DNA of 43,377 bases from a virus: positions 1-43,377 of the IMG/VR virus record IMGVR_UViG_3300030380_005453. One strand, written 5' to 3'. The notes under the pieces are model-generated. The model did no database searches. It had not been told where the DNA came from and saw nothing but the letters and a program-made list of their open reading frames with translations. The first letter of the stretch is position 1; each line of letters opens with the position of its first letter. Shown one piece after another: positions 2,105 to 41,927 of the stretch. The position numbers and the translations under genes are program-made.

Positions 2105-3673
2105 ATGGAATATAATCAACCAAGTCAGATTGTAAAAGATCTGAATTTTGGCTATGAAGCTAGAGAAAAAGTAATGCACGGCGTAGATAAGCTAACAAAT
2201 GCAGTAAAATCTACATTAGGTGCATCAGGAAAATGCGTTATCTATGAAGATGCGCAAGGAAAACCGGTGATTACAAAAGATGGTGTAACGGTCGCAGAAT
2301 CCGTAGTCTTATATGATCCGGTTGAAAACATAGGTGCTACGCTTATTAAAGAAGCAGCTAAAAATACAGTGAAAGAAGCAGGTGACGGTACTACAACAGC
2401 TACCGTGCTTGCTCATTCATTATTACATTTAGCAAATGAACAAAAATATGCTCAAAGTGTTAGACCTATAAAAGAAGGTATACTATCAGCTTTAGATAAA
2501 GTAAATAAATATCTTAATAAAAAAGCTGTTGAAGTAAAAGGCGATATGCTAGAAAGCGTAGCAGAAATAAGTTGTAATAACGATAAAACTCTCGGAAAGA
2601 TCATATCGCAAGCCTATTCAAAAGTAGGTAAGGATGGTGTCGTCCTTATGGAAGAGTCCGAGACCCATGACACATACGTTAAAATCGTAGAGGGCACAAG
2701 AATAAATTGCGGACTTAAATCGCCACATTTTGTAACAGACAGAGATAAAGGTAAAGCAGAACTAGATAATCCATATGTATTAATAGTTTCCTCATCTATA
2801 CCTAATATTCGTAAAATACAAAACGTATTGGAGTTTGTTATTAAAAATAAAAGGAGTCTGTTGATCGTCGCAGGCGTAGAACAACAACCAATGGCCGCAT
2901 TGCTAGCAAATAAAGTCAAGGGTAACATAAAAGTAAATGTTGTAGATCTGCCTGGATTTGGTCCAACAAAACAAGATACTATTGAAGACCTTGCGATACT
3001 TACCGGAGCTAAAGTGATTAATGAAGAACTTGGTGATGATCTTGACTTGATCGAGCCTAGTGTTTTAGGTGAAGCTATAAAAGTTATTACTGATGATTAT
3101 ACTACAGTATTGCAAACGCCAGATCTAGTGCATGTAGATTTTGTAGAAAGGGTTAAAGGAATTGAAAAAAGAATAAAGAAAGAAAAAAACCCGTTCTTTA
3201 AGAAGAAGCTACGAGAAAGATTAGCAATGTTAAACGGCAAAGTAGCGATGATTAAAGTCGGCGCGGACTCTAAAGTTGAAATGAAAGAAAAGAAAGATAG
3301 AGTTGAAGACGCTATATATGCTACTAAAGCAGCATTACAAGAAGGTATTATTGCCGGAGGTGGTGTTGCACTGCTTGATGCTGCGCATTCTATTGCGCCG
3401 GAAAATGAAGGAGAAGAAATACTTTTACAAGCAATAAAATCACCATACGCTACAATATTAGATAATGCAGCATTAGAACATTACGAGTCTAAAAAAAGAG
3501 GATTTGGTATAGATGTTGTACAAAATAAAGAAGTTGATATGGTTAAAGCAGGTATTATAGATCCTGTACTTGTAACTAAAACAGCACTAAAAAATGCAGT
3601 TAGTGTTGCTACAACAATATTTTCAGCAGATTGTGTAATTAATAATATTCGAGTATTAAATGAAAGCAGTTAA
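2105..3673 (+). CDS. groEL: Phage-encoded chaperonin GroEL (HSP60)
   Basis: A 522-aa group I chaperonin that folds proteins in an ATP-driven ring in the cytoplasm. The ATP-binding VITKDG (55-60), GDGTTT (93-98, with D94 matching the family's D87) and the hydrolytic aspartate in RVEDA (D402, E. coli D398) are present. So are the hinge and apical landmarks LPGFG and AGGGVAL. The position of E. coli D52 appears to be Glu48. In the substrate and GroES-binding face, the E. coli motif GYLSPYF reads GLKSPHF, so two tyrosines are replaced. The C-terminus stops without the Gly-Gly-Met tail and is about 25 residues shorter than E. coli GroEL. The gene overlaps groES by 14 bases in reverse order to bacterial operons. 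Confidence 0.97.
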
Positions 3674-9417: not shown

Positions 9418-11397
9418 ATGAGAAACTTTCTTGGATTTAAAATAGACACTTGGGGTACAAGCACGACAAGAAGCACAACTACTACAAAGAGCACTAGTAC
9501 AACTAAAGTTATTAGTACTACTAGAAATACAACTAAGAATACAACCACTGAATACGTTTCAGGTACTATTACAATATATAATACTTCCACTACAACAACC
9601 GAAAGTAGAAGCACTCAAGAACAAAGAGTAACTACTATTAGTACAAGCAAAAGTACAACAACTTCTTTTAATACCTCTAGAACAACTAATAAAGACACTA
9701 CAACTACATTTGCTACATCTAAAAGCACAACAACTACTTTTAGTACTAATAAAAATACAACCGAAAGCAGAAACACAACTACGGCATATAGTACTACAAC
9801 TGTATATAGTACAAGTAGATCTACATCTACAAGTAGAACAACTACGATTTCAACTAATAAAAATACAACAACTACTTTCGCTACAAGCAGATCTACAACT
9901 ACTACATTCGCGACATCAAAAAATACGACGGAGAGTAGAACAACTACTATATCAACTTCAAAAAGTACAACAACCACGTTCGCTACTAGTCGAAATACTA
10001 CAGAGCAAAGAAGCACTACAACTGTATATACAACAAGCACTGTTTTTAATACAAGCAGATCTACAAGTACGAGCACTATTACAACATTTGCTACTAGTAG
10101 AAATACTACGGAACAAAGAAGTACAACAACAACATACACGACAAGTACTGTTTTTAACACTAGTACTTCAACAACAACAGTATATACAACAACGTTTGCA
10201 ACTTCAAGAAGTACAACAACTACTTTTGCAACTAGCAGATCAACTCAAGAAACTAGAAGCACATCCAGATCAACTACAACAGTTTATACTACAACTTTTG
10301 CAACATCTAGAAACACAACCGAAAGTAGAAGCACAACCACTGTATATACAACTAATACAGTATTTAATACAAGTACATCAACAGTTACAACTTTTGCAAC
10401 GTCTAAAACAACTAGCAGAAGCACAACAACTACTTTTGCTACAAGTAGAAACACTACTACTACATTTGCTACTAGCCGATCAACAACGACAACGTTTGCT
10501 ACTAGTAAGTCAACTACAACAACGTTTAATACATCTACAACAACTACGACAACTTATACAACAACATTTGCTACAAGTAGAAGTACTAGCACAAGCAGGT
10601 CTACGACAACAACTTATACAACAACATTCCAAACAAGTGTTGTTACGTCTAGAACAACCACATTTGGAACAAGCAGAAATACTACCACAACATTTAATAC
10701 AGTAACTGCTTACAATACGACTACTACATATAATACGTCTAGAAATACAGCTGAAAGTAGAGCAACAGGAACATCAGTAGCAACAACTACAGTTTATGCT
10801 ACAAGCAGAAGCACGGGTGAAAGCAGGAGTACAACAACAGTGTATGGAACTACAACCACTTTTAATACTAGTAAGAGTACAACTACAGTATATCAAACAA
10901 CGGTTTCATTAACATCATTTACTTCAACTGGTAGTAGTAGTTCAAATTTTGTATGTTTTGAATTTTTAGGTAATACATTCTTTGGAACTAATGTATCTAG
11001 TGGTTTACCTCAGACAGGCTCACAGGTTTATGCACAAAATAATACAAGCTTCCCGTTATCATCTGGTTTTTATGGAGCTCAAAATGCATCTGGATTTTCG
11101 CCAACACATAAATACGAAATTGGCGCAGGCGGAACTGTAACGTCACTTACTTCTTGTGGTGGTGGATTTTCGGATAGATCATTAAAGCGAGATATTAAAT
11201 TAATAGGTATATCGCCAAGCGGATTAAATATATATTCATTTAAATTTATAGACGCTAAGTACGGTGAAGGAACATGGCAAGGTGTTATGGCTGATGAAGT
11301 TGAACACATACCGGGAGCTGTTATAGAATGGAAAGGATTAAAATATGTTAACTATAACGAAGTAGATGAAATTGACGTAGAATTTAAACAAATATAA
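9418..11397 (+). CDS. Thr/Ser-repeat fibre with C-terminal Peptidase_S74 chaperone
   Basis: A 659-aa protein. Residues 15 to about 500 are almost pure Thr/Ser in units such as TSRSTTTTFA, TSRNTTES and RSTTTVYTTSTVFN. Aromatic residues recur at even spacings (4, 6, 10, 14, 16, 22, 24), with Arg/Lys/Glu in the same register, as expected of one face of an extended beta structure. A globular Gly/Ser/Phe part follows (about 505-584). Residues 585-659 match the Peptidase_S74 intramolecular chaperone: FSDRSLKRDI with Ser585 as the likely self-cleavage residue, then QGVMADEVEHIPG and YNEVDE. Such domains trimerise fibres and may be released. All four Thr codons are used, so the repeat is not simple DNA slippage. 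Confidence 0.85.
   Translation: MRNFLGFKIDTWGTSTTRSTTTTKSTSTTKVISTTRNTTKNTTTEYVSGTITIYNTSTTTTESRSTQEQRVTTISTSKSTTTSFNTSRTTNKDTTTTFATSKSTTTTFSTNKNTTESRNTTTAYSTTTVYSTSRSTSTSRTTTISTNKNTTTTFATSRSTTTTFATSKNTTESRTTTISTSKSTTTTFATSRNTTEQRSTTTVYTTSTVFNTSRSTSTSTITTFATSRNTTEQRSTTTTYTTSTVFNTSTSTTTVYTTTFATSRSTTTTFATSRSTQETRSTSRSTTTVYTTTFATSRNTTESRSTTTVYTTNTVFNTSTSTVTTFATSKTTSRSTTTTFATSRNTTTTFATSRSTTTTFATSKSTTTTFNTSTTTTTTYTTTFATSRSTSTSRSTTTTYTTTFQTSVVTSRTTTFGTSRNTTTTFNTVTAYNTTTTYNTSRNTAESRATGTSVATTTVYATSRSTGESRSTTTVYGTTTTFNTSKSTTTVYQTTVSLTSFTSTGSSSSNFVCFEFLGNTFFGTNVSSGLPQTGSQVYAQNNTSFPLSSGFYGAQNASGFSPTHKYEIGAGGTVTSLTSCGGGFSDRSLKRDIKLIGISPSGLNIYSFKFIDAKYGEGTWQGVMADEVEHIPGAVIEWKGLKYVNYNEVDEIDVEFKQI
9430..10900 (+). 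repeat. Degenerate Thr/Ser-coding repeat array 1
   Basis: Roughly 490 codons of Thr/Ser-rich repeats inside the fibre gene. The protein pattern repeats closely, but Thr codons ACA, ACT, ACG and ACC and all Ser codon types alternate, so neighbouring units differ at synonymous positions. Antisense and shifted frames stay open here because ACN, AGN and TTT rarely give stops in other frames; those frames are not genes. Confidence 0.85.
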
Positions 11398-11398
11398 T

Positions 11399-11965
11399 AT
11401 GGAAACTTATTTTGATGAAAGCTTAATACCAGCGCACAACGGAGAAAATTTTGTTGTAGAAAAAGTTAATAAACAAAAAAATGAATCAGACTGGTATACT
11501 ATGTCCTTGTTTAAATACAAACAAGATGTATTACATCAAAGATATAATCATGAAATACCCGCTAAAAATTTTGCAGGCGATGGTGGTGGATGTTGTGGAT
11601 GGGATGTAACTGCTGCTCAATACGATGGATTAGCGTGGGCTGATATATTATATTTAGGTTTATACTTAGGTAATGCTCCCGATTATATTTATAAAAATAA
11701 ATCTGTAGATTCTTTAGATGTTATTGAATCAGACCAAGAAATAATAGATTATGTTACTTGGATAGATAATGATATTAATGTTATACAACATAATGAATGG
11801 ACATATAATACATCAAAACAATATAATATTATAATATGTGATTTATGGGCTGTACCAGGTGATGTAACACAAGACCATAAAACAAAATTATTAAATAATT
11901 ATAGTAATAATTTAAAAATTGGTGGTAAAATAATAATTCCTATATCGGGAGAAACAATAAATTAA
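11399..11965 (+). CDS. SAM-dependent methyltransferase-like protein
   Basis: A 188-aa Rossmann-type protein. DILYLGLYLGNAP (82-94) stands where the Gly-rich SAM-binding motif I lies. SLDVIESDQEI (105-115) has the acidic residue after strand 2, YNIIICDLW (142-150) is a motif like the catalytic-site strand, and LKIGGKIIIP (172-181) matches the late strand. Spacing recalls spermidine-synthase-like and small-molecule methyltransferases. Just before motif I is an unusual GDGGGCCGWD. The gene lies between the two Thr-repeat proteins with one-base gaps, so a role in modifying them or another virion part is attractive but unproven. Confidence 0.65.
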   Translation: METYFDESLIPAHNGENFVVEKVNKQKNESDWYTMSLFKYKQDVLHQRYNHEIPAKNFAGDGGGCCGWDVTAAQYDGLAWADILYLGLYLGNAPDYIYKNKSVDSLDVIESDQEIIDYVTWIDNDINVIQHNEWTYNTSKQYNIIICDLWAVPGDVTQDHKTKLLNNYSNNLKIGGKIIIPISGETIN

Positions 11966-11966
11966 A

Positions 11967-13505
11967 ATGCCAAATACTAGTAGAAGTACAACAACAACAT
12001 TCGCTACAAGTGATCTTACCGTCGAAAGCAGAAGTACGACAACAGCGTATAATACTACTACTACGTATAATACCAGTAGAAGTACTACTTCGTCTTTTAA
12101 TACCACAACAACATATAATACAACTACAACTTATAATACTTCCAGAAGTACCGGAGAGAGTAGAAATACAGCTACATCTAGAGCAACAAGCACAGCTTTT
12201 AATACAAGTAGAACAACAACATATACAAGTTTTTTTAATACTAGTAGAGTCACTGATAAAAGTACCACTACAACATTTAATACTACCACAACTTTTAATA
12301 CAAGTAGAACAACAAGCCGAAGTACGACCACAACGTTTGCGACATCTAGATCAACTACAACAACATTTAATACGAGTAGAAGTACGACTACAACTTTTAA
12401 TACAAGTAAAAGTACAACAACAACTTTTAACACTAGCACAGTAACTGTAACGGTATTTACAACTACTTTTAATACTAGTAGAAGTACTACTACAACATTT
12501 GCAACTTCAAGAAATACAACAGAGTCTAGAAGTACTACTACAACATATACAACAACAACAACGTTTAACACGTCGACTATAACTTCAAAAAGCACCACTA
12601 CAACTTTTAACACTGTATATGCAACAACAACAGTGTTTAATACAAGTACCAATACTACGACAACATTTAATACGAGTAAAAGCACAAGTAAATCAACTAC
12701 CACGACGTTTTCAACAAGCAGAAATACTATTGAAAGTAGAAGTACAACAACAACATATACTACATCTACTACATTCAACACGTCAACTGCTACAACAACT
12801 GTATATACTACGACTTTTTCTACGTCAAAAAATACAACTGAATCTAGAAGTACGACTACAACGTATACCACAAGTACTACGTTCAATACTAGTACAAACA
12901 CAACAACAGTTTTTAACACTAGTACAACTACAGTATATACAACCAGTACTGTATTTAATACAAGTAAAAGCACTACTACTACATTTAATACTTCGACTGC
13001 AACAAATACAGTATTTAATACTAGTACCACCACTACGTTTAATACAACAACAACGTTTAATACTAGTACAACGACAATAGAGAGTAGGCAGACATCAACC
13101 GTATATACAACTAATACAGTGTTTAATACTAGTACTACTACAACAACAACATTCAATACTAGTACTACTACTAATACAGTATATACAACAACATTTGGAA
13201 CTAGTAAATCAACTACAACAGTATTCAACACTAGCACCACAACTGTATACACAACAACTACGGTATATACAACGACTACAACATTTGAAGAATCTAGAAG
13301 TACATCTGCTGATGAATTAGAAGGTATTCCAGTATCAACGCTTAGAACAACATCAACAACATTTAGTACAACATTTAATACAAGTACTGTTACTACATTT
13401 AACACTAGCACTGCAACAGTTACAGTTTTTTCAACAACTACTAGTTTTTGGGGTGGTGGTGATTTTGGACAATTAGGTGGTCATTCATTTGGCGACGGTA
13501 GGTAA
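11967..13505 (+). CDS. Second Thr/Ser-repeat fibre-like protein
   Basis: A 512-aa protein that enters the repeat at once (MPNTSRSTTTTFATSD) and stays in it to about residue 485, using units like those of the 659-aa protein and the same even spacing of Phe/Tyr. It is richer in TTTTFNTS and TTTYNTS units. Near residue 445 a short non-repeat insert (SADELEGIPVSTLR) interrupts it. The C-terminus switches to a Gly/Phe-rich tail (FWGGGDFGQLGGHSFGDGR) and lacks the S74 domain. It probably forms a fibre shaft or a surface-coating appendage; the missing trimerisation domain suggests co-assembly with the first protein or a glycine-rich tip. No anchor motif is recognised. Confidence 0.8.
   Translation: MPNTSRSTTTTFATSDLTVESRSTTTAYNTTTTYNTSRSTTSSFNTTTTYNTTTTYNTSRSTGESRNTATSRATSTAFNTSRTTTYTSFFNTSRVTDKSTTTTFNTTTTFNTSRTTSRSTTTTFATSRSTTTTFNTSRSTTTTFNTSKSTTTTFNTSTVTVTVFTTTFNTSRSTTTTFATSRNTTESRSTTTTYTTTTTFNTSTITSKSTTTTFNTVYATTTVFNTSTNTTTTFNTSKSTSKSTTTTFSTSRNTIESRSTTTTYTTSTTFNTSTATTTVYTTTFSTSKNTTESRSTTTTYTTSTTFNTSTNTTTVFNTSTTTVYTTSTVFNTSKSTTTTFNTSTATNTVFNTSTTTTFNTTTTFNTSTTTIESRQTSTVYTTNTVFNTSTTTTTTFNTSTTTNTVYTTTFGTSKSTTTVFNTSTTTVYTTTTVYTTTTTFEESRSTSADELEGIPVSTLRTTSTTFSTTFNTSTVTTFNTSTATVTVFSTTTSFWGGGDFGQLGGHSFGDGR
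11970..13430 (+). repeat. Degenerate Thr/Ser-coding repeat array 2
   Basis: About 480 codons repeating TTTTFNTS-type units, related to the array at 9430-10900 but separated from it by the methyltransferase-like gene. Synonymous codons are again mixed. The long antisense frame across 12131-13411 (Val/Leu-rich) is a by-product of this composition. Confidence 0.8.
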
Positions 13506-13566: not shown

Positions 13567-14457
13567 ATGGAAATGTTTAATAAAACGGAGCTAAATAAAC
13601 GCATAGGTCCGTTAAAAAAATCAAAACAATTATATGACCTAGAAGCGGTGGAGGGTTATGTAATTAGAAAGTGTGGGGAACACGGGTTAGAGCATAGTTA
13701 CGATGTTCTAGCTGAAGAAATGCCATATTTTAAAACAATGGCATATACAGAATATGCAGGATGTTTTTATTTGCAACCTTTAAATTTTAAAATAAGAAAT
13801 GAACAGATGATAGACGCGGCTACCCCTAGTAGCTCTGAAATTCTTGATTACTCTTCATGGCTTATAGATAGAATTGTAAATAATGATGCAAATAAGTATC
13901 AAAATAGAAGAGAAGAGTACGATAAATATCCTTCAAAAGATTATATAGTTATTTTACCTGGATCTAATAAAGTACGTGAAAACGTATGTTTAAATAGATT
14001 GAAATATATATCTAAAAAACACGGTGATAATATTTATTTTAAACCTCATCCGATTACAACGCATCAAATTATAGGTGAGTTGAAAGATTTTTTTGGTGAA
14101 GATAATATACTACCTAGAGATATAAACATGTACTACTATTTGCAAAAAGCAACAGGTGTATATACAACACATATAAGTGAAAGTTGTGTATATGGCGTAG
14201 TTACTGGTAAAAAAACAGAACCTATTGATGTTTGGAATAATATACAAAGAGGTTCATTTTATTGTATAAATAATCATTTATTAGCAAACCAATGGAACGC
14301 TAAAGAATATATTAATAAAACTTTTTCAAATTATAAATCAGGAATTATTAATCCAGAAATAGATAAAAATTGGAAACAAAAAGTTGATTTATATTTTGAT
14401 TATGTATGTAAAAAAAGAGAAACTTATAAAGATTGGTTTCTTGCAGATAAAAAATAA
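13567..14457 (+). CDS. Glycosyltransferase-like protein (GT-B type, tentative)
   Basis: A 296-aa soluble protein. The C-terminal half reads as a nucleotide-sugar-binding Rossmann domain: DYIVILPGSNK (125-135), NIYFKPHPITTHQ (155-167), ILPRDINMYYYLQKATGVYT (181-200), then HISESCVYGVVTGKKTEP (202-219). The KPHP, then SE and GK order is that of polysialyl, capsule and CDP-glycerol-type transferases. The N-terminal half is unfamiliar. It follows the second Thr-repeat protein after a 61-bp gap, so O-linked sugar addition to the Thr/Ser arrays is a natural hypothesis. Modification of host or phage glycan is an alternative. Family assignment is moderate. Confidence 0.6.
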   Translation: MEMFNKTELNKRIGPLKKSKQLYDLEAVEGYVIRKCGEHGLEHSYDVLAEEMPYFKTMAYTEYAGCFYLQPLNFKIRNEQMIDAATPSSSEILDYSSWLIDRIVNNDANKYQNRREEYDKYPSKDYIVILPGSNKVRENVCLNRLKYISKKHGDNIYFKPHPITTHQIIGELKDFFGEDNILPRDINMYYYLQKATGVYTTHISESCVYGVVTGKKTEPIDVWNNIQRGSFYCINNHLLANQWNAKEYINKTFSNYKSGIINPEIDKNWKQKVDLYFDYVCKKRETYKDWFLADKK

Positions 14458-14702: not shown

Positions 14703-14923
14703 TGACATCTTTAGTAAGAAAAATTAGTATAGGAAGAGATTATAAAAATGACGCAATGCACTACTCAGTAGGCCAAGATGTATATGGAGGCCATACAATA
14801 GATTCAATAGTAGAAGAAGAAGATAAATTTTCTATTTATATTAAAAAAGGTAAAGAAGTATTGCCTTGGAAAGATTTTAATAAAAACATGGCTATTGCTG
14901 TTGAATATAATTTAGAATATTAA
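14702..14923 (+). CDS. Small conserved-looking phage protein
   Basis: A 73-aa beta-type protein: VRKISIGRDYKNDAMHYSVG (5-24), VYGGHTIDSIVEEED, FSIYIKKGKEVLPWKDF and a C-terminal AVEYNLEY. The order IGxDxxxAMHYxVGQ, W, VEYNL looks conserved and recalls small proteins that sit before the terminase in marine Bacteroidota phages. It is joined to both neighbours by TAATG overlaps and so belongs firmly to the packaging/head operon. Role unknown. Confidence 0.65.
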   Translation: MTSLVRKISIGRDYKNDAMHYSVGQDVYGGHTIDSIVEEEDKFSIYIKKGKEVLPWKDFNKNMAIAVEYNLEY

Positions 14924-15522
14924 TGCAAAGTTTATTTAGCTTTATAGTTAAACCTAAAAACGAAAGATACGATAATATAAAAAAAATTGGAAATAAAAAT
15001 TTAATATTAAATTCAGAAATTTCTGATCACAGATATGTAAGTCGTACTGGAATAGTTTTAGCGGTACCTAAAGAAAATAATACAAAAATAAAAGTTAATG
15101 ATGAAGTTATTGTTCATCATAATGTTTTTAGAAGGTGGTATAATCAAAAAGGTAAAGAAGTAAATACAAAAAGTTTTTATAAAGAAAACAAATACTTAGT
15201 ATACCCAGATCAAATATTTTTATATAAAAGAAATAATAAATGGTATGCACCTGATGAATATTGTTTTGTAAAACCGATTATATCTAATAATATATTATCA
15301 AATAACAAAGAAGTTCCTTATAGAGGAATTATAAAATATATAAGTAAAAATCTTGATGATATTAATATAGGAGATTTAGTTGGCTTTAGACCAAATAGCG
15401 AATATGAGTTTGTTGTTGATGGTGAAAGACTATATAGAGTATTAACTAAATTTATAACAATTAAGTATGAACGTCAAGGAAACGAAAAAGAATATAATCC
15501 AAGCTGGGCAAAAGGCAGTTGA
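14923..15522 (+). CDS. Double GroES-like barrel protein (co-chaperonin-like)
   Basis: A 199-aa protein that looks like two GroES-type beta barrels in tandem. The first has RTGIVLAVPK (41-50), KVNDEVIVHHNVFRRW (57-72) and YPDQIFLY (94-101). The second has PYRGIIKYIS (132-141), INIGDLVGFR (147-156) and GERLYRVLTKFITIKYE (167-183). RG-V then GD-V then a late strand is the order of GroES around its roof and base. No GroEL-binding mobile loop of the GGIVL kind is clear. It might fold capsid or fibre proteins with the phage GroEL, or be a structural protein that reused the fold. Confidence 0.6.
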   Translation: MQSLFSFIVKPKNERYDNIKKIGNKNLILNSEISDHRYVSRTGIVLAVPKENNTKIKVNDEVIVHHNVFRRWYNQKGKEVNTKSFYKENKYLVYPDQIFLYKRNNKWYAPDEYCFVKPIISNNILSNNKEVPYRGIIKYISKNLDDINIGDLVGFRPNSEYEFVVDGERLYRVLTKFITIKYERQGNEKEYNPSWAKGS

Positions 15523-33989: not shown

Positions 33990-36900
33990 ATGTACAAATT
34001 TAAAGAAAAAGTATTTTCGTTAGATGAAATAAGCAAAGCAGCTAATACTTCTAACATGAGTATAGACGATTATATTCAAAAAGCTGGCATAACTCAAGAG
34101 CCAGATGAAGAGCAGGATTTTCTAAACCCCACAGCACCGGGTGCGGTTGTGGGAGAAACTACAGCGCCCGATACGGAATCTCCGTCGGTAGATGGTTCAT
34201 TGGAATCACTAAATGAATGTCCACAGGGCTTCACAAAAAATAGTAATGGAGATTGTGAAAAAATTGAATTTCAAGGTCAGGGCTTTGGGGTTAGAAAAAA
34301 GAAAATAATTCTTACTCCTGAACAAAGTAATTTATTACTAGAACAAGACAAAAAATCTAAAGAACAAGCACAAAAGTTTGGAAAAGATGCTTTTGATTTA
34401 TTTAATAGTAATATAGGTTTTGGTATAGCTCAAGACTTAGGAATAGAATACTTAACAGATTTACAGAAAGTTAACAATCCTGAATTTATTGAAGCTTATA
34501 AAGAATATGTTTATAGTAATTCTAAATTTGATGTAGATAATCTAAAATATAAAGATGAAGCTTTTTCAATAGCTATTTCAAATATTCAAGAAAAAGAATT
34601 TGAATTAGACATGGCTAATAAAATAAAAAAGTTTGGCCCTAGTCTAGATAATAAAATATTATTAGGAGAAAGGCAAAGAAGGGGTAAAACAAATTTTATT
34701 AATAGATATAAAAAAGAAGATGGTTCGAATGATTTATTAGAATTAATAACTATTAATGCAGATTTACAAAAGCTAATGAGCGATAAGGATATTGACGGCT
34801 TTGACAATCAAGAACAAATAAAAAAATTAAATGATAGAAAAAGTGTTCTTGCTAAAAATTTAGGTTTTGAAGATGATCAGCCTTTTATGTTTAGAACAAG
34901 TAATAGAGGTTGGGTTAGAGCTGATATGGAAGAAAAATTACCTGATGATGAACAAAAAATAGATTTAGCTGAATACATGGAAGCTATGTTTAACTATTTT
35001 AGCACGGAACAACAAGAAGACCAAGCAGATATTGATAGCATTTTTGATAGTAATGGTGATAATGTTGTTACTGATTATGAAAGATTAAAAGGTAATTTAG
35101 ATTTAACATATTTAGAATTAAATGATTTAGATAAAAATTTAAATAAAACATACGATATAAAACATACCAGCTTTACTATTGGAAAAGCTCTTGGTAATAA
35201 ATTAGGTTATACACTAGGTGATGACGGAGTATATAGAAACGTTTCTTTACGTGATATGGTTTCTGTAGCTCATATGCAAAATAATAAAATTGACGGCGGT
35301 GTATTTACAGTTCATTATGACGACGGCGCTACAGAAGGCGGTGAAATTAGACAAATAGATTTATACGATACTACAAAAGAATATCAAACCACAAACGCAG
35401 AATTATTAGCAAAAAAAGATGCTTTAGAAAGAATAGTTTTTACAGGTATAAATCCTAAATCATATATACAAAAACCAGGTAAAGAATTATTATATTCTTT
35501 TAGAAGCTCATTTTTAAATAAAGTAGATTTAGAAAGAGCTAAATTTGGTATTGAAAATAGAAAAACAATATTAGATACAGAATTTTCAGACACATGGGGT
35601 TTTAAAAATACATTTGATGATGTATTTCAAGAAGATATATCATTCACAATTGGAATGATGAATACCTTAGATATACCTATAACACCTGAACAAATACAAA
35701 ATTCTAAACCAACTAATTTAACGGCTGTTTCACAAGCTGTAGGGCATGTTCCTGTTATGGCTCTTGAATTTGGTGTAGTTGGTGGTGGATTAAGTCTTAT
35801 GTCTAGGGCCGCTGGAGCTGCAGGCTATTTTAATGCTTTAAGAACACCTACATATATAACGCCGCAGGGTAGATCAGTAACTTTACCTGTTATTGAACAA
35901 GTAGCTAGAAGATTTGGTTTTGATGATGCTGCCGCTTATATAAAAGCAAAAGGACTAAAGTTAACTAAAGGAAATACACTTGATCAATTAAAAGTATTTG
36001 GATATGATGCGCTTTTAGCAGAAGGAACATTAAGAATAGTTGAAGGCGACGATATGGCATATGTTGGTGTTGGTTTTGTTTTTTCCGATAGAGTGTTAGG
36101 TGGTGCGGCTGGTAAACTTAAAAGATTAGTATTTGGTGAAAGAAATCCTGCATTAATTAAAGCTTATAATAGTATACCTTCTTTTTATAGAACAGTCGTT
36201 GAAGGTGGTGTTAAATTTGTTCCTGGTACAGAAGCAGGTCTTGCTTTGCAAGCTATTGAAAAAGACTTAATGGGTAATCAAGCTTTTGCTACATTTATAA
36301 AAGATAATTATGGTAATGAAGATGAAGTTACACAAAGATTTATAACAAGTTTTGTTTCTGGTATGGCTTTTTCCGGCGCTAATAGTGGTTTTAGAACTAA
36401 TACTATGCTGCCTGAAAGCTGGCTTACGGGTAGAAGAAGTAAATTAAGAAAAAAATATACTACAGACGGTAAATTTAATTTAGAAAATATGTCTGCAGCT
36501 GACAGAGGCTTGTATGATATGTTAGGACAAGAATTAGCTATAAGACATGATACCAAAGTTCAAAGCAATACATATGTTGAGCAATGGTGGACTAAGCAAA
36601 TGAATAAGCTAAATAAAACAGAAGACATTCAAGTGCCTTTTAAATTTATACGAGATGTAAAAGCTAAGCCAGTAAGCTTAAAGTTTGGACCAGATGGTAA
36701 AGCATTTATGGTTTTAAATACGCCTAAATTAACTGAAAACATGGTACCTCATGAATTTTGGCATATATTTAGCCGTCAAAAAATAAAAGATCCTGAGTTT
36801 GCTATAAGTGTTAAGAAAAAAATTGATCCTTTATTAGATAAGCTATTTAAACAAGCTGGAGCTAATGAAACTTTTAGTAATGTTATAAAAGAAATTTACG

Positions 36901-39900
36901 GAGCTGATGCTGATTTAAGAACAAAAGAAGGAAAAGAATTTATAGCAGAAGAATATTTTGGTAATTTATTAGAGTTATTAGCTAATAAAAGTATAAGAAA
37001 AGATATAGTAGAATCAGGATTATTACCCGATTTAAAAGGTACTATGCAAAACATGCTTATAGATTTAGTAGCTAAAAATCCTAGACTATTTGAAACTACT
37101 TTATTTAAAAGTTTACCAAAAAAATTATTGCCTGAACAATGGACTCCAGAACAAACTATAGAGTATTTAACACAAATGGCTTTAACTGGTAAAAAAGGTA
37201 ATGTTTCAAAATTTGCAGAGCAATTAAGCTATTTATCAAAATATCAATTTGAAGGAAAAAATGGTAATGATTTAAAAACACCTGACGGTAAAGTTATAGA
37301 ATATAATTCTATAGGTGGTAAACTATTAGAAAGGTTAGAATTAGAGTCTAAAAAAATACAAGAAGATTACAATGTATTTAAAAACTCTGGGAAAGAATTT
37401 CCAGTTGAACTTATAAACCCTTATGCAAAAGAGGGAACATCGGCTGATATTATAAATAAATATGTAAGAGGATGGGTTTTAAGAAGATTTGGTAAAGACG
37501 CTGAGGGTAATGTAAGAGAATTAACAAAAGATCAAATAGAAGAGCTTACGTTACATACATTATATGATCCAAGAGGTGTATTAGGCATAATACAAAAATA
37601 CAAGGGTGGCCAACCAATTACGAAAACTATAAAACAACATTTAGATGGTAAAATGTTTTCAAGATTTGGAGATATAAGAGCAAGCTCTATATTTGGTAGT
37701 AGAAGGTTAGAAGAAGGCGGTGAAACAATAATTGATCCTACATATGTTGAAACAAAAAATAGAATAGAATTTGAATCATTTAAAAAATCTGACGGAACAA
37801 AATTAGATTTATCAAATGTATTATCTAAAGTTGACATAGAAGTAGATAAGCTATTAGTAACAACAGGTAGACAAACTGAGCTTACATTTATGGATTTTGC
37901 AAGCGGTCCTTTTGATTTTTTATCAACCGCTAAAAAACCTCCAATGAAGCTAATGTCCAGCATTAAAGAAGCTTTTGGATCTACTACAGCGGAAAGAAAC
38001 GCTAATATAAAAGCTAATATAGAAAGAATATATGAAATGATACCTGAAAGCTTTGATACAAAGTCTCAGCAATCTACACAGGTTATTAAGGGTCAATCTA
38101 TATTTAAAGAATTTTTTGATATTTCAAAAACTGAAAGATATCCTAAAAGTAAAGTTGGCGATAATCAACCCTTTAAAGCTAATAAGAAACAACTAAAATA
38201 TGACGAAAACGGTCAGTTAACTCCTGAATCACAACAATTATTAAATAGATTTACAGAGGTACTTACAGAGGGTAGAGTTGATGCAAAGCATACTAGGTTA
38301 TTTAATGTGTTATCACAAGCAATACAGGTTAGAAGAGCTACTGATAAATTAAATAACATGTCTCAAGAAGGTGCTGACATACCTAGTAATATAAAAGACG
38401 CGGCATACCTATCTACACTATTCCAAAGTATAGGTAATTTAAAGAGTGTTCAAGGTCAAGCATTTGCAAGTACTGGAGAAATTGAGTTAATTCAACAATT
38501 ACAAAAAAAAGGTATAACAACATTAGATAGCGGTTTAACTTTTTTAAGAAACTTTAATCCACTCACGGCATCAACAGAAGATATTGCCCTTAAAAATGCT
38601 TTAGCTTTTGCAAGAGAGCCTTTCTTAGAAAAAAATGGTAAAACTTATAGTGCTTTCTTAAAAGAGTATAAAGATGGTATTTATTCTAAACATGACAATA
38701 AATTTAAATCAACATTCCATTCTGTGCAAGGTTATGAAATGAAAGTAACAGAATTAATGGTTAAAGGCGATATTAAAAAAGCCGAGGAACTATTTAAAGA
38801 AATTGAAGAACAATACAAAATTCAAGAAAATCATTCAAAAGGATTTTTGAATGAAATAGCACCATTTATCCCTGAAAATGTTATTGCGGCATTTCCGGGT
38901 GAAAAATTTAGTCTCTTAAAAAGCATGTTTAATTTAAGAGGGGATAGATTAGCTGGTAAGCCTAATGGCAGATATGGAAAAGCCTTTATAGAATCATTGT
39001 TAAACTTTAAAAATAAACACAAATACGAAAATCCTAAATACGAAAAAATAATACAAGATGGAGTAGATGCTTTAAATAACGGAAAATTCTTATTTGAAGT
39101 TGGAGAGTTTGCTAAAAAAGTTGATCCTATAATAGAAAGAACTGACATAGATGTAACTAAAAAGCTTGAGTTAATTGAAAAAGTATACGGACCAGAGTTC
39201 GGTAAAAATTTAGAAGCTATTGATAAGATGATGGGCGTATTCTATGAATCATATTTAAATGCTAAGCCTTCACCTATAAAAGGTGAATCACCTGCTCAAT
39301 TCAATAAAAGAGTGGATGCACAAAGATTAGAAAGAGAAAGAAGATTAGCTGATCATTTTCAAATGCAGTCTAGTAATCCTTTTTCAGTAAGAGGTATAGC
39401 TCAATACACGTCTGTTTATATTCCTTCACCTAGAAAAGGTGAATCACCTACTGAATTTAATAAAAGATTAGGTGAATATATGAAGAAGAAAAGGAAGGGT
39501 GAACACATAAAAGATTCATCAACTTTTGCTTTTGAAACGTTTAAAGATTTAGTAGAAAATAATTTCTTTAAAAATTACGATACTAGAAAACTTGGGTTTG
39601 AACAAAGTTATGGCCCTGAAGGAAGCAGTAAACCAGGACAAAAAACAGGCTGGAATTTAGTAGATAATTTTGGTAGAAATAATAATCAAGGTTACGATAG
39701 AATGTTAGCAAACCATGACATATTTAGGAATACCTATGATATATCTACTAAAAAATCTTATTATGATTTGTATGCTGAAGCTCAAATGATAAAAGAATTT
39801 TCTGGTAAAAAATTATTAGAATTTAATCAATTAAGGGTAGATCAGCAAGCCAAAAGAAACGAGTTACAAACAGAGTATAATTCAAGAAACTTATCAGAAT

Positions 39901-41927
39901 ATTTAAATAAAGAAATATTTGAACAAAACTTTGAAATACCTGCAGATGCTATTATAAGCCCTAATAAAGCTAAAATAAGAGGTAGAGAAAATAAACAATG
40001 GAATTTATTTTCAAGTAAAGCAGCTGACGCTGAACTTTTAATATATAGAACATTAGGCAAAGGCGAAGTAGGAAATAAACAATTTGAATGGTGGAAAGAA
40101 AACTTTCTTAAACCTTTTGCTAGAGCAGACAATGCTGTTAATGCTTTTGAAGTTAAAGCTATAAAAGATTTAAAAACAATATTAAATTCTAATAAACCAT
40201 TAAAGAAAGAGTTAAATCAGGTAAATAATAAAACAGGTTACAAAAATTCTGAAGCTTTAAGAATATATATGTGGGCTAGACAAGGAGAAAAAATACCTGG
40301 ATTAACTAAAACAGATTTAAATGCTGTTGTAAAAGAAGTTGAAAACAATCCTGAACTTGTTAAATTAGCTAATAGCTTATCTTTTATTACAGGAGGCTAT
40401 GGCTGGGGCAAGCCTAGAGAAAACTGGATTGATACAACTTTACATGGAGATATTTTAAATATTGTAAGAAATAGCGCAAGACCAGATATATTTAGGCAAT
40501 GGGTTGAAAATAAAAATGAAATATTTAGCCAAAATAATTTACGTAAAATGGAATATCAGTTTGGCGAGAATTATGTGGAAGCATGGAAAAACATGCTATG
40601 GCGAATGGAAACTGGCCAGAGTAGAAGACAAGACATGGGTAAATTTGAAAGAGGATTGAACGATTATATAACAGGTGGTCAATCCACTATAATGTTCTGG
40701 AACATGAAAACCTCTCTTACTCAGTTAACTTCAATGCCTAACTATATAAACTGGGGAGATAATAACTTTTTTGCCGCAAGTAAAGCTGTTGCTAATATAC
40801 CTCAATTTGCTAAAGACGTAAGAACATTATTTATGTCTGATTTTGCAGTAGGTAGAAGAGATAATTTGAAAATGAATGTAAACGAAGCTGAACTTGCTAC
40901 TATAATGCAAAGAGGTGGTGGTTTTAATGGGGTATTAAATTATGTATTAAAACAAGGTTATACTCCTACAAGAGCAGCTGATGGTATAGCTATTTCTGTT
41001 GGCGGGGCTAGTTTTTATAGAAATAGAATAAATACATATAAAAGAGAAGGTTTCAAAGAAACTGAAGCTGAGAAAAAAGCAATGGAAGATTGGATTGAAG
41101 TAACGCAAGAAAATCAGCAATCATCAAGAGCAGATAGAATTTCATATCAGCAAGCTTCAACATTAGGTAAAGCAGTATTAAATTTTGCTAATACACCTAT
41201 GCAATATAATAGAATAATGTATAGAGCATATAAAGATTTAGTTAACAGAAGAGGCGATGATAAAACAAATTTATCTAAAATAGTTCATTACGGTGCATTG
41301 CAAAGCACTCTATTTACTTCTTTACAACAAGCTGTATTTGCTTTATACACCGGAGACGCAAGACCAGAAGACGCAGATAAAAAAGCATTTAAAATGATAG
41401 ATTCAATGACACAAACTTGGTTAAGAGGATTTGGATTTGGTGGAGCAGGTGCAGATATGACTAAGCAAGTATTTATTGATTTATATAAAAGAGCGCAGGG
41501 TGATAAGTATAATAAAGATTTAGGAGAAGCGGCGTGGAAAGTATTTAGTATTTCTCCACCTATTTCTTCTAAGGTTGATAAATTAAGAAGGTCTTTTCAA
41601 ACATATGAATATGAAGGCGATATGATGTTAAGAAAACCATTAGATCCAGATGACCCATTTTATTCTATGCTAGGGCAAGGATTAGAAGGTGTATTCAACA
41701 TACCTATGAATAGAGCTTTAATTAAATTAAAAAATATAGAAAACTTTTTAGATGAAGAGTTAGAATGGTACAATAGATTATTTTCAATATTAGGATATAA
41801 TGAGCATGCACTATTAATAGCTCCTCCGGACCCTAAACCAGGGCGTGTAAAAACAGATATATTTGGTCAAGAAAATATATTTAAAGGAAACGATATATTT
41901 GAAACAGATAATATTTTTAAAAAATAA
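33990..41927 (+). CDS. Giant virion/ejection polyvalent protein with metallopeptidase motif
   Basis: A 2645-aa protein, by far the largest here. In order: Cys loop CPQGFTKNSNGDC (77-89); two EF-hand-like loops, DKDIDGFDNQEQ (265-276, weak) and DSNGDNVVTDYE (353-364, canonical Asp/Asn/Asp/Glu spacing); a Gly/Ala-rich hydrophobic part (about 580-615); a zincin motif VPHEFWHIF (His921, Glu922, His925) with IAEEYFG (Glu987-988) as a possible third ligand. A later pair of KGESPxxFNKR repeats sits near 1763 and 1815. The C-terminal third (from about 2229) resembles late parts of phage polyvalent proteins, with FANTPMQYNRIMYRA. The last residues repeat NIF/DIF four times. It probably enters the host with the DNA. 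No RNA polymerase DxDGD motif was found. Confidence 0.75.
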   Translation: MYKFKEKVFSLDEISKAANTSNMSIDDYIQKAGITQEPDEEQDFLNPTAPGAVVGETTAPDTESPSVDGSLESLNECPQGFTKNSNGDCEKIEFQGQGFGVRKKKIILTPEQSNLLLEQDKKSKEQAQKFGKDAFDLFNSNIGFGIAQDLGIEYLTDLQKVNNPEFIEAYKEYVYSNSKFDVDNLKYKDEAFSIAISNIQEKEFELDMANKIKKFGPSLDNKILLGERQRRGKTNFINRYKKEDGSNDLLELITINADLQKLMSDKDIDGFDNQEQIKKLNDRKSVLAKNLGFEDDQPFMFRTSNRGWVRADMEEKLPDDEQKIDLAEYMEAMFNYFSTEQQEDQADIDSIFDSNGDNVVTDYERLKGNLDLTYLELNDLDKNLNKTYDIKHTSFTIGKALGNKLGYTLGDDGVYRNVSLRDMVSVAHMQNNKIDGGVFTVHYDDGATEGGEIRQIDLYDTTKEYQTTNAELLAKKDALERIVFTGINPKSYIQKPGKELLYSFRSSFLNKVDLERAKFGIENRKTILDTEFSDTWGFKNTFDDVFQEDISFTIGMMNTLDIPITPEQIQNSKPTNLTAVSQAVGHVPVMALEFGVVGGGLSLMSRAAGAAGYFNALRTPTYITPQGRSVTLPVIEQVARRFGFDDAAAYIKAKGLKLTKGNTLDQLKVFGYDALLAEGTLRIVEGDDMAYVGVGFVFSDRVLGGAAGKLKRLVFGERNPALIKAYNSIPSFYRTVVEGGVKFVPGTEAGLALQAIEKDLMGNQAFATFIKDNYGNEDEVTQRFITSFVSGMAFSGANSGFRTNTMLPESWLTGRRSKLRKKYTTDGKFNLENMSAADRGLYDMLGQELAIRHDTKVQSNTYVEQWWTKQMNKLNKTEDIQVPFKFIRDVKAKPVSLKFGPDGKAFMVLNTPKLTENMVPHEFWHIFSRQKIKDPEFAISVKKKIDPLLDKLFKQAGANETFSNVIKEIYGADADLRTKEGKEFIAEEYFGNLLELLANKSIRKDIVESGLLPDLKGTMQNMLIDLVAKNPRLFETTLFKSLPKKLLPEQWTPEQTIEYLTQMALTGKKGNVSKFAEQLSYLSKYQFEGKNGNDLKTPDGKVIEYNSIGGKLLERLELESKKIQEDYNVFKNSGKEFPVELINPYAKEGTSADIINKYVRGWVLRRFGKDAEGNVRELTKDQIEELTLHTLYDPRGVLGIIQKYKGGQPITKTIKQHLDGKMFSRFGDIRASSIFGSRRLEEGGETIIDPTYVETKNRIEFESFKKSDGTKLDLSNVLSKVDIEVDKLLVTTGRQTELTFMDFASGPFDFLSTAKKPPMKLMSSIKEAFGSTTAERNANIKANIERIYEMIPESFDTKSQQSTQVIKGQSIFKEFFDISKTERYPKSKVGDNQPFKANKKQLKYDENGQLTPESQQLLNRFTEVLTEGRVDAKHTRLFNVLSQAIQVRRATDKLNNMSQEGADIPSNIKDAAYLSTLFQSIGNLKSVQGQAFASTGEIELIQQLQKKGITTLDSGLTFLRNFNPLTASTEDIALKNALAFAREPFLEKNGKTYSAFLKEYKDGIYSKHDNKFKSTFHSVQGYEMKVTELMVKGDIKKAEELFKEIEEQYKIQENHSKGFLNEIAPFIPENVIAAFPGEKFSLLKSMFNLRGDRLAGKPNGRYGKAFIESLLNFKNKHKYENPKYEKIIQDGVDALNNGKFLFEVGEFAKKVDPIIERTDIDVTKKLELIEKVYGPEFGKNLEAIDKMMGVFYESYLNAKPSPIKGESPAQFNKRVDAQRLERERRLADHFQMQSSNPFSVRGIAQYTSVYIPSPRKGESPTEFNKRLGEYMKKKRKGEHIKDSSTFAFETFKDLVENNFFKNYDTRKLGFEQSYGPEGSSKPGQKTGWNLVDNFGRNNNQGYDRMLANHDIFRNTYDISTKKSYYDLYAEAQMIKEFSGKKLLEFNQLRVDQQAKRNELQTEYNSRNLSEYLNKEIFEQNFEIPADAIISPNKAKIRGRENKQWNLFSSKAADAELLIYRTLGKGEVGNKQFEWWKENFLKPFARADNAVNAFEVKAIKDLKTILNSNKPLKKELNQVNNKTGYKNSEALRIYMWARQGEKIPGLTKTDLNAVVKEVENNPELVKLANSLSFITGGYGWGKPRENWIDTTLHGDILNIVRNSARPDIFRQWVENKNEIFSQNNLRKMEYQFGENYVEAWKNMLWRMETGQSRRQDMGKFERGLNDYITGGQSTIMFWNMKTSLTQLTSMPNYINWGDNNFFAASKAVANIPQFAKDVRTLFMSDFAVGRRDNLKMNVNEAELATIMQRGGGFNGVLNYVLKQGYTPTRAADGIAISVGGASFYRNRINTYKREGFKETEAEKKAMEDWIEVTQENQQSSRADRISYQQASTLGKAVLNFANTPMQYNRIMYRAYKDLVNRRGDDKTNLSKIVHYGALQSTLFTSLQQAVFALYTGDARPEDADKKAFKMIDSMTQTWLRGFGFGGAGADMTKQVFIDLYKRAQGDKYNKDLGEAAWKVFSISPPISSKVDKLRRSFQTYEYEGDMMLRKPLDPDDPFYSMLGQGLEGVFNIPMNRALIKLKNIENFLDEELEWYNRLFSILGYNEHALLIAPPDPKPGRVKTDIFGQENIFKGNDIFETDNIFKK

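Follow-up and report, generated by a model that had tools for sequence, protein, structure and literature searches.

Two neighbouring Thr/Ser repeat proteins of a phage probably form the complementary, antiparallel halves of a single out-and-back fibre

The IMG/VR virus record IMGVR_UViG_3300030380_005453 (43.7 kb) carries, within the 43.4-kb stretch analysed here and referred to as the window, two genes for long Thr/Ser-rich repeat proteins. An initial annotation made from the sequence alone had placed them correctly: protein A is encoded at 9418-11397 (+; 659 aa) and protein B at 11967-13505 (+; 512 aa). Both genes come after tail-fibre-like genes, of which the one at 7174-8907 matches the tail fibre family phrog_892 (5e-9). 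The parts of the two proteins, delimited with a composition model and with boundaries that are soft by about 10 residues, are as follows.

9418..9456, + strand: base anchor of A, aa 1-13, MRNFLGFKIDTWG; a start like GF..[IV]..[WF]-[NSG]T recurs in A proteins and in fused, single-chain relatives
9457..10893, + strand: proposed outward arm of A, aa 14-492, a Thr/Ser array in strict even register, matched to the B array where iA+jB=498
10894..11394, + strand: C-terminal tip domain of A, aa 493-659, with an end resembling the S74 chaperone at aa 585-630 (weak Pfam S74 match; homologous tips)
11967..13448, + strand: proposed return arm of B, aa 3-494, array from the outset, with antiparallel complementarity to A
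13449..13502, + strand: C-terminal base segment of B, ending in FGQLGGHSFGDGR, kept in relatives L066, L020 and L118

Phe and Tyr residues of the repeats had been reported, from partial counts, to lie at even distances from one another, and the rule holds on a full count: 38 of 41 steps are even in the A array (aa 1-510) and 50 of 52 in the B array. The three odd steps of A fall at the N-terminal anchor and the array end, and both odd steps of B stem from F89-F90, the Phe-Phe pair already singled out as an exception. In shuffled sequences, the mean even fraction was 0.47-0.48 and the best of 1000 shuffles reached about 0.73. The steps themselves vary freely in size (4, 6, 8, 10, 14, 16, 22 and so on, with a span of 4-26). 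When alternate residues are assigned to two faces, A has mainly on face 1 (face 1/face 2 counts) F 24/2, Y 16/0, R 33/0, K 14/0 and E 10/1, and mainly on face 2 S 4/85, N 1/27, A 0/19, V 3/17 and Q 0/7; the corresponding counts for B are F 37/1, Y 15/0, R 21/0, K 8/0, N 0/40, S 2/75 and V 1/21. Charged residues therefore do share the aromatic register, as had been suggested, whereas the other face, described as almost only Ser, Thr, Ala and Asn, includes Val, Gln and Gly as well.

The parity is general. A DNA pattern of the repeat was run against the viral collection and gave at least 118 stretches; the same pattern had zero matches among the genomes of 84,980 bacterial and archaeal species. 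The requirement of this pattern for R/K and F/Y within the unit skews the composition of what is found and cannot create a partner-specific register. A two-state register model, with an emission table trained on the window proteins, was applied to about 100 other arrays among the matches listed (86,906 residues) and needed 131 register switches in total. Shuffled long arrays required roughly 15-75 switches each, compared with zero in one real stretch of 3,341 residues.

The relation between A and B was examined with a complementarity score, defined as aromatic:charged pairs minus like pairs and scanned over 301 registers. A naive correlation of residue classes between the arms had been dropped as uninformative because a 10-residue periodicity is common to the two arms; it was replaced by phase-lock and complementarity scores, with shuffled units and wrong partners as controls. 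The window gave one sharp antiparallel peak at iA+jB=498 (z=9.7), with a score of 14.4 against 3.9 at the next best register, and the parallel control reached z 3.8. In this register there are 68 aromatic:cation, 0 aromatic:aromatic and 0 cation:cation pairs, where 14.1, 8.1 and 5.4 are expected. A peak is present in all 19 phages that have A and B (z 5.3-9.7); pooled over these phages, some of which are closely related, the counts are 1716 aromatic:charged, 17 aromatic:aromatic and 27 charged:charged. When the unit order of the window B was shuffled 1000 times, the score averaged 3.0 with a maximum of 5.2, compared with 14.0 observed. Partner specificity follows the same line: in the matrix of the 18 phages tabulated, which is essentially diagonal, each A is fitted by its own B and unrelated partners score 2-5, the off-diagonal fits being confined to close relatives (L003/L034 and L074/L087), where they nearly equal the fit to the own B.

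Among ten less redundant phages, the Phe and Tyr pairs are F:R 284, F:K 157, Y:R 140, Y:K 74 and Y:H 56, the Trp pairs W:R 93, W:K 72 and W:Q 52, and the like pairs F:F 0, R:R 0, R:K 0 and K:K 2. Glu stands outside this pairing and is mostly opposite Thr. His was seen to pair solely with Tyr (56, against 0 with Phe) and Gln almost solely with Trp (52), preferences that may reflect either the few phages concerned or a finer code.

The lengths of the arrays vary together. A and B array lengths correlate with r=0.98 over 19 phages (419-1,125 aa), and for the two arms of fused proteins r is 0.9997; in one fused subfamily arm 2 exceeds arm 1 by a constant +7 to +9 while the arms range over 217-418 aa. 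Insertions and deletions are placed accordingly in mirror order. The relatives L066 and L020, 98% identical in both A and B, are set apart by a single 68-aa deletion in each protein (A 125-193, B 303-371); the two deletions coincide in height when B is taken to run antiparallel to A, and not when it is taken as parallel. In 13 comparisons, some of which share a sequence and are thus partly non-independent, 25 of 43 arm-1 indels are matched by an indel of equal length within 25 residues of the mirror position, compared with 0 under parallel mapping. Two giant proteins are six 12-aa indels apart, which form three mirror pairs, and indels among relatives are even in length in 85 of 88 cases and odd in three. 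The unit lengths are free to vary because the partner arm varies along at the mirror position.

In some relatives the register switches just once, mid-protein, at a short linker or at a non-repeat domain of 60-110 residues. This switch, together with the equal lengths of A and B, leads away from the single-chain solenoid per protein that had been proposed at the outset; of that proposal, the long extended beta structure with two unlike faces is retained, and A and B appear as complementary antiparallel arms, a relation that the initial annotation had missed. The giants are single open reading frames of 3,298-3,418 aa. In G001 the self-complementarity is centred on residue 1714 of 3418, with 231 aromatic:cation pairs against 1 and 0.5 like pairs (z 22.6), and the unit-shuffled null for this protein gives at most 37 net pairs versus 230 observed. 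G007, at 168/5/2, gives a weaker signal, and its register is centred away from the middle (residue 1615 of 3298), perhaps through a slip or bulge. In complete array proteins of the fused type, the complementarity centre lies at 0.50-0.53 of the length. Phase-lock exceeded 500 unit shuffles in nine of nine fused proteins, with that of L111 not above the parallel control, and in L112 a 4-residue aromatic step in one arm faces a 14-residue one in the other at the same height, in 7 of 7 instances. Judged by sequence, what distinguishes the split form from the fused hairpin is a break at the tip.

The tip of the window A matches Pfam S74 at E 0.011-0.042 (16.5 bits, below the curated cutoff of 22), and all 11 homologous tips match, with a best E of 1.2e-5. 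The AlphaFold2 model of this tip has a mean of 55, with confidence confined to the C-terminal tip and its S74-like end, and Foldseek with the model returned no match; neither bears on the fold of the array. Other A proteins (L003, L034, L030, L012, L025 and L053) have in place of S74 a Hint/intein-like C-terminal tip, which is possibly self-processing.

Taken together, these observations make it very probable that A and B form a single out-and-back fibre as its two antiparallel, complementary arms. A would run from base to tip and bear the tip domain, and B would lead from the tip back to the base. Each arm would be a single, almost uninterrupted beta-like strand, so that residues alternate between two faces. 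On the outer, coded face, Phe, Tyr or Trp would tend to oppose Arg, Lys or His in cation-pi cross-strand pairs, with Thr opposite Thr elsewhere; the second face, of small Ser, Thr, Asn, Ala and Val, would probably lie inside. The extended strands, the cation-pi pairs and the inward small residues are deduced from the parity and established beta-strand geometry, and the arms would be in side-by-side contact. Gene context suggests that the whole is probably a tail-fibre stalk presenting a tip, and we infer a trimer because the tip is S74-like. We further consider it likely that this amounts to a residue-by-residue code, comparable to the complementarity of DNA strands, with recognition of the own B only and mirror indels of even length, in arms of tens to about 1,700 residues and in many uncultivated phages.

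The same complementarity could act between different hairpins or trimer subunits, the A of one chain facing the B of the next. A six-stranded trimer would give two kinds of A:B contact that are alike by sequence, and the S74-like tip suggests such a trimer, but there are fused giants with tight tips, although swapping is still compatible with them. We regard this arrangement as unlikely, if worth keeping in mind; the intramolecular hairpin is the simplest reading because the fused form in the giants has tight tips. Far less credible is the proposition that A and B each fold separately, as a beta-solenoid or a long single strand, and are duplicates whose lengths are similar for a trivial reason. 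The strict two-face register within each protein and the common repeat vocabulary would agree with it, yet A is complementary to its own B only (best self-pairing scores A:A 4.8 and B:B 5.0, against 14.0 for A:B), the indels correspond in mirror order and never in parallel, and a solenoid calls for coils of constant length, where the steps range from 4 to 26.

The arrays have a further companion, which bears on their possible modification.

13567..14457, + strand: linked partner gene, 296 aa, phrog_26179, putative GT-B glycosyltransferase with a K-x-H-P motif, recognised by family linkage

In 82 of the 83 loci whose downstream sequence extends for 700 bases or more, an unannotated family of about 300 aa lies 3' of the array, on the same strand and mostly within 165 bases. 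K-x-H-P is invariant in the family, and Pfam Capsule_synth matches weakly in 4 of 17 partner homologues (best 6e-4), the window copy being without a match; the invariant motif and these weak matches together suggest that the product is probably a GT-B glycosyltransferase. In L129 (9776-18890), downstream of a giant array of 3.3 thousand aa, KdsA/NeuB-like, GT29-like, radical SAM and short-chain dehydrogenase/reductase (SDR) genes are followed by a tail sheath gene, a set that looks like a sugar cassette. A GT29-like gene also occurs near L106. Since a putative glycosyltransferase is linked and sugar genes lie nearby, it is a fair guess that the Thr/Ser array is O-glycosylated, putatively by the partner product. 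One might go further and picture a disordered, heavily glycosylated mucin-like stalk whose register merely records glycosyltransferase spacing, in keeping with the Thr/Ser content and the linked gene; we consider this very improbable, as it leaves unexplained why the products of two separate genes should be complementary residue by residue, and why there are mirror indels. Practically no weight is left for a pairing of nucleic acid (an mRNA or DNA hairpin between the genes) with the protein pattern as by-product: base pairing is likewise antiparallel-complementary, but base complementarity in the window is 0.348 against 0.335 +- 0.012 (rank 19 of 101 even registers), which refutes it there.

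BLAST against cultured phages masks the arrays, and the partner gene was used as a query, which led to Caulobacter phages. BL198 (L136) and Lullwater (L138) encode a Thr-alternating protein of 217 or 215 aa, annotated as hypothetical, between a 'tail fiber protein' and the partner; the array genes are gp046/gp41, the partner genes gp047/gp42, and CB15 is the laboratory host. Quill_5.2 (L139) and BL199 (L140) likewise have a short Thr-alternating protein between the tail fibre and partner genes, and Cr30 (L137) has a similar gene of 116 aa ahead of the partner homologue.

Several points weigh against the two-armed fibre. The hairpin signal of BL198 and Lullwater (9:3:0 and 10:2:0, centre 0.52-0.53) is weak by itself; 22 aromatics of the window stand opposite neither class; and L008 and L062 match in part only (about a third), perhaps through local register slips or bulges. 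An AlphaFold2 monomer of a small fused member had a predicted local distance difference test (pLDDT) score of 34, which with nine sequences is uninformative on the array fold, and phmmer of B against PDB chains found none at E<=1, leaving the array without a solved relative. The antiparallel register, the complementarity, the partner specificity, the matched lengths, the mirror indels and the fused hairpin form are read directly from the sequences, while the fibre and the place of A and B in the virion are predictions.

By terminase comparison, the source phage is podovirus-like. Its terminase is 62% identical to that of a Manatee Spring podovirus, which has a P22-like portal, and about 43% identical to the terminases of elemo-group Flavobacterium phages, with Cellulophaga phages also among the matches. 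The same genome encodes GroEL and GroES-like proteins (2105-3673 and 14923-15522), which could aid fibre folding, and a protein of 2,645 aa (33990-41927) with zero Pfam matches. Large antisense open reading frames, e.g. 12131-13411 (-), appear to be shadows of the repeat codons and not genes. A further small gene separates A from B.

11399..11965, + strand: 188-aa gene between A and B, also found between them in L066 and L054

A Pfam search with its product gave no match; by eye only it has the look of a degenerate methyltransferase, and it is a possible assembly factor.

If the two-armed fibre is correct, it would represent a natural, readable pairing code for protein strands, with specificity legible in the sequence. 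At an upper bound of 0.33 nm per residue, the fibre would measure about 150 nm in the window and more than 0.5 micrometre in the giants. The host-recognition stalks of many unannotated phages would become interpretable and gene pairs that belong together predictable; the code would offer a scaffold idea for protein design, and the origin of equal indels at mirror positions of two genes would be an evolutionary puzzle. Short versions in cultured Caulobacter phages make the model testable now.

These proteins were not described in the literature searched, the coverage of which is incomplete, and we know of no description of protein-protein pairing of this kind. In the T4 gp37 needle, each chain goes out and comes back. 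The resemblance lies in two antiparallel arms around a tip, seen here by sequence covariation and mirror indels only, whereas the present arms have hundreds to 1,700 residues, are often two genes and carry an aromatic:cation code; the HxH motifs that form the iron sites of gp37 have no counterpart in the window A and B arrays, which contain zero His, and the phmmer comparison of B with PDB chains showed no sequence relation to gp37. Tail fibres with Peptidase_S74, the endosialidase-type chaperone, are comparable at the end of A, which resembles S74 below the curated cutoff; the array lies outside the S74 model and some A tips are Hint/intein-like. The constant repeat length of beta-solenoids and triple beta-spirals is absent from A and B. 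Serine-rich repeat adhesins are Ser/Thr-rich surface proteins with adjacent glycosyltransferases, and A and B may be likened to them, by analogy and with different hosts, in their Ser/Thr richness and linked putative glycosyltransferase; to our knowledge, no paired partner arm or register code is known for these adhesins. Designed beta-hairpins and alternating peptides of the MAX1 type have the same strict alternation and the same out-turn-back course (PMC12940918) but, unlike A and B, are of about 20 residues, are not natural and lack a long complementarity code.
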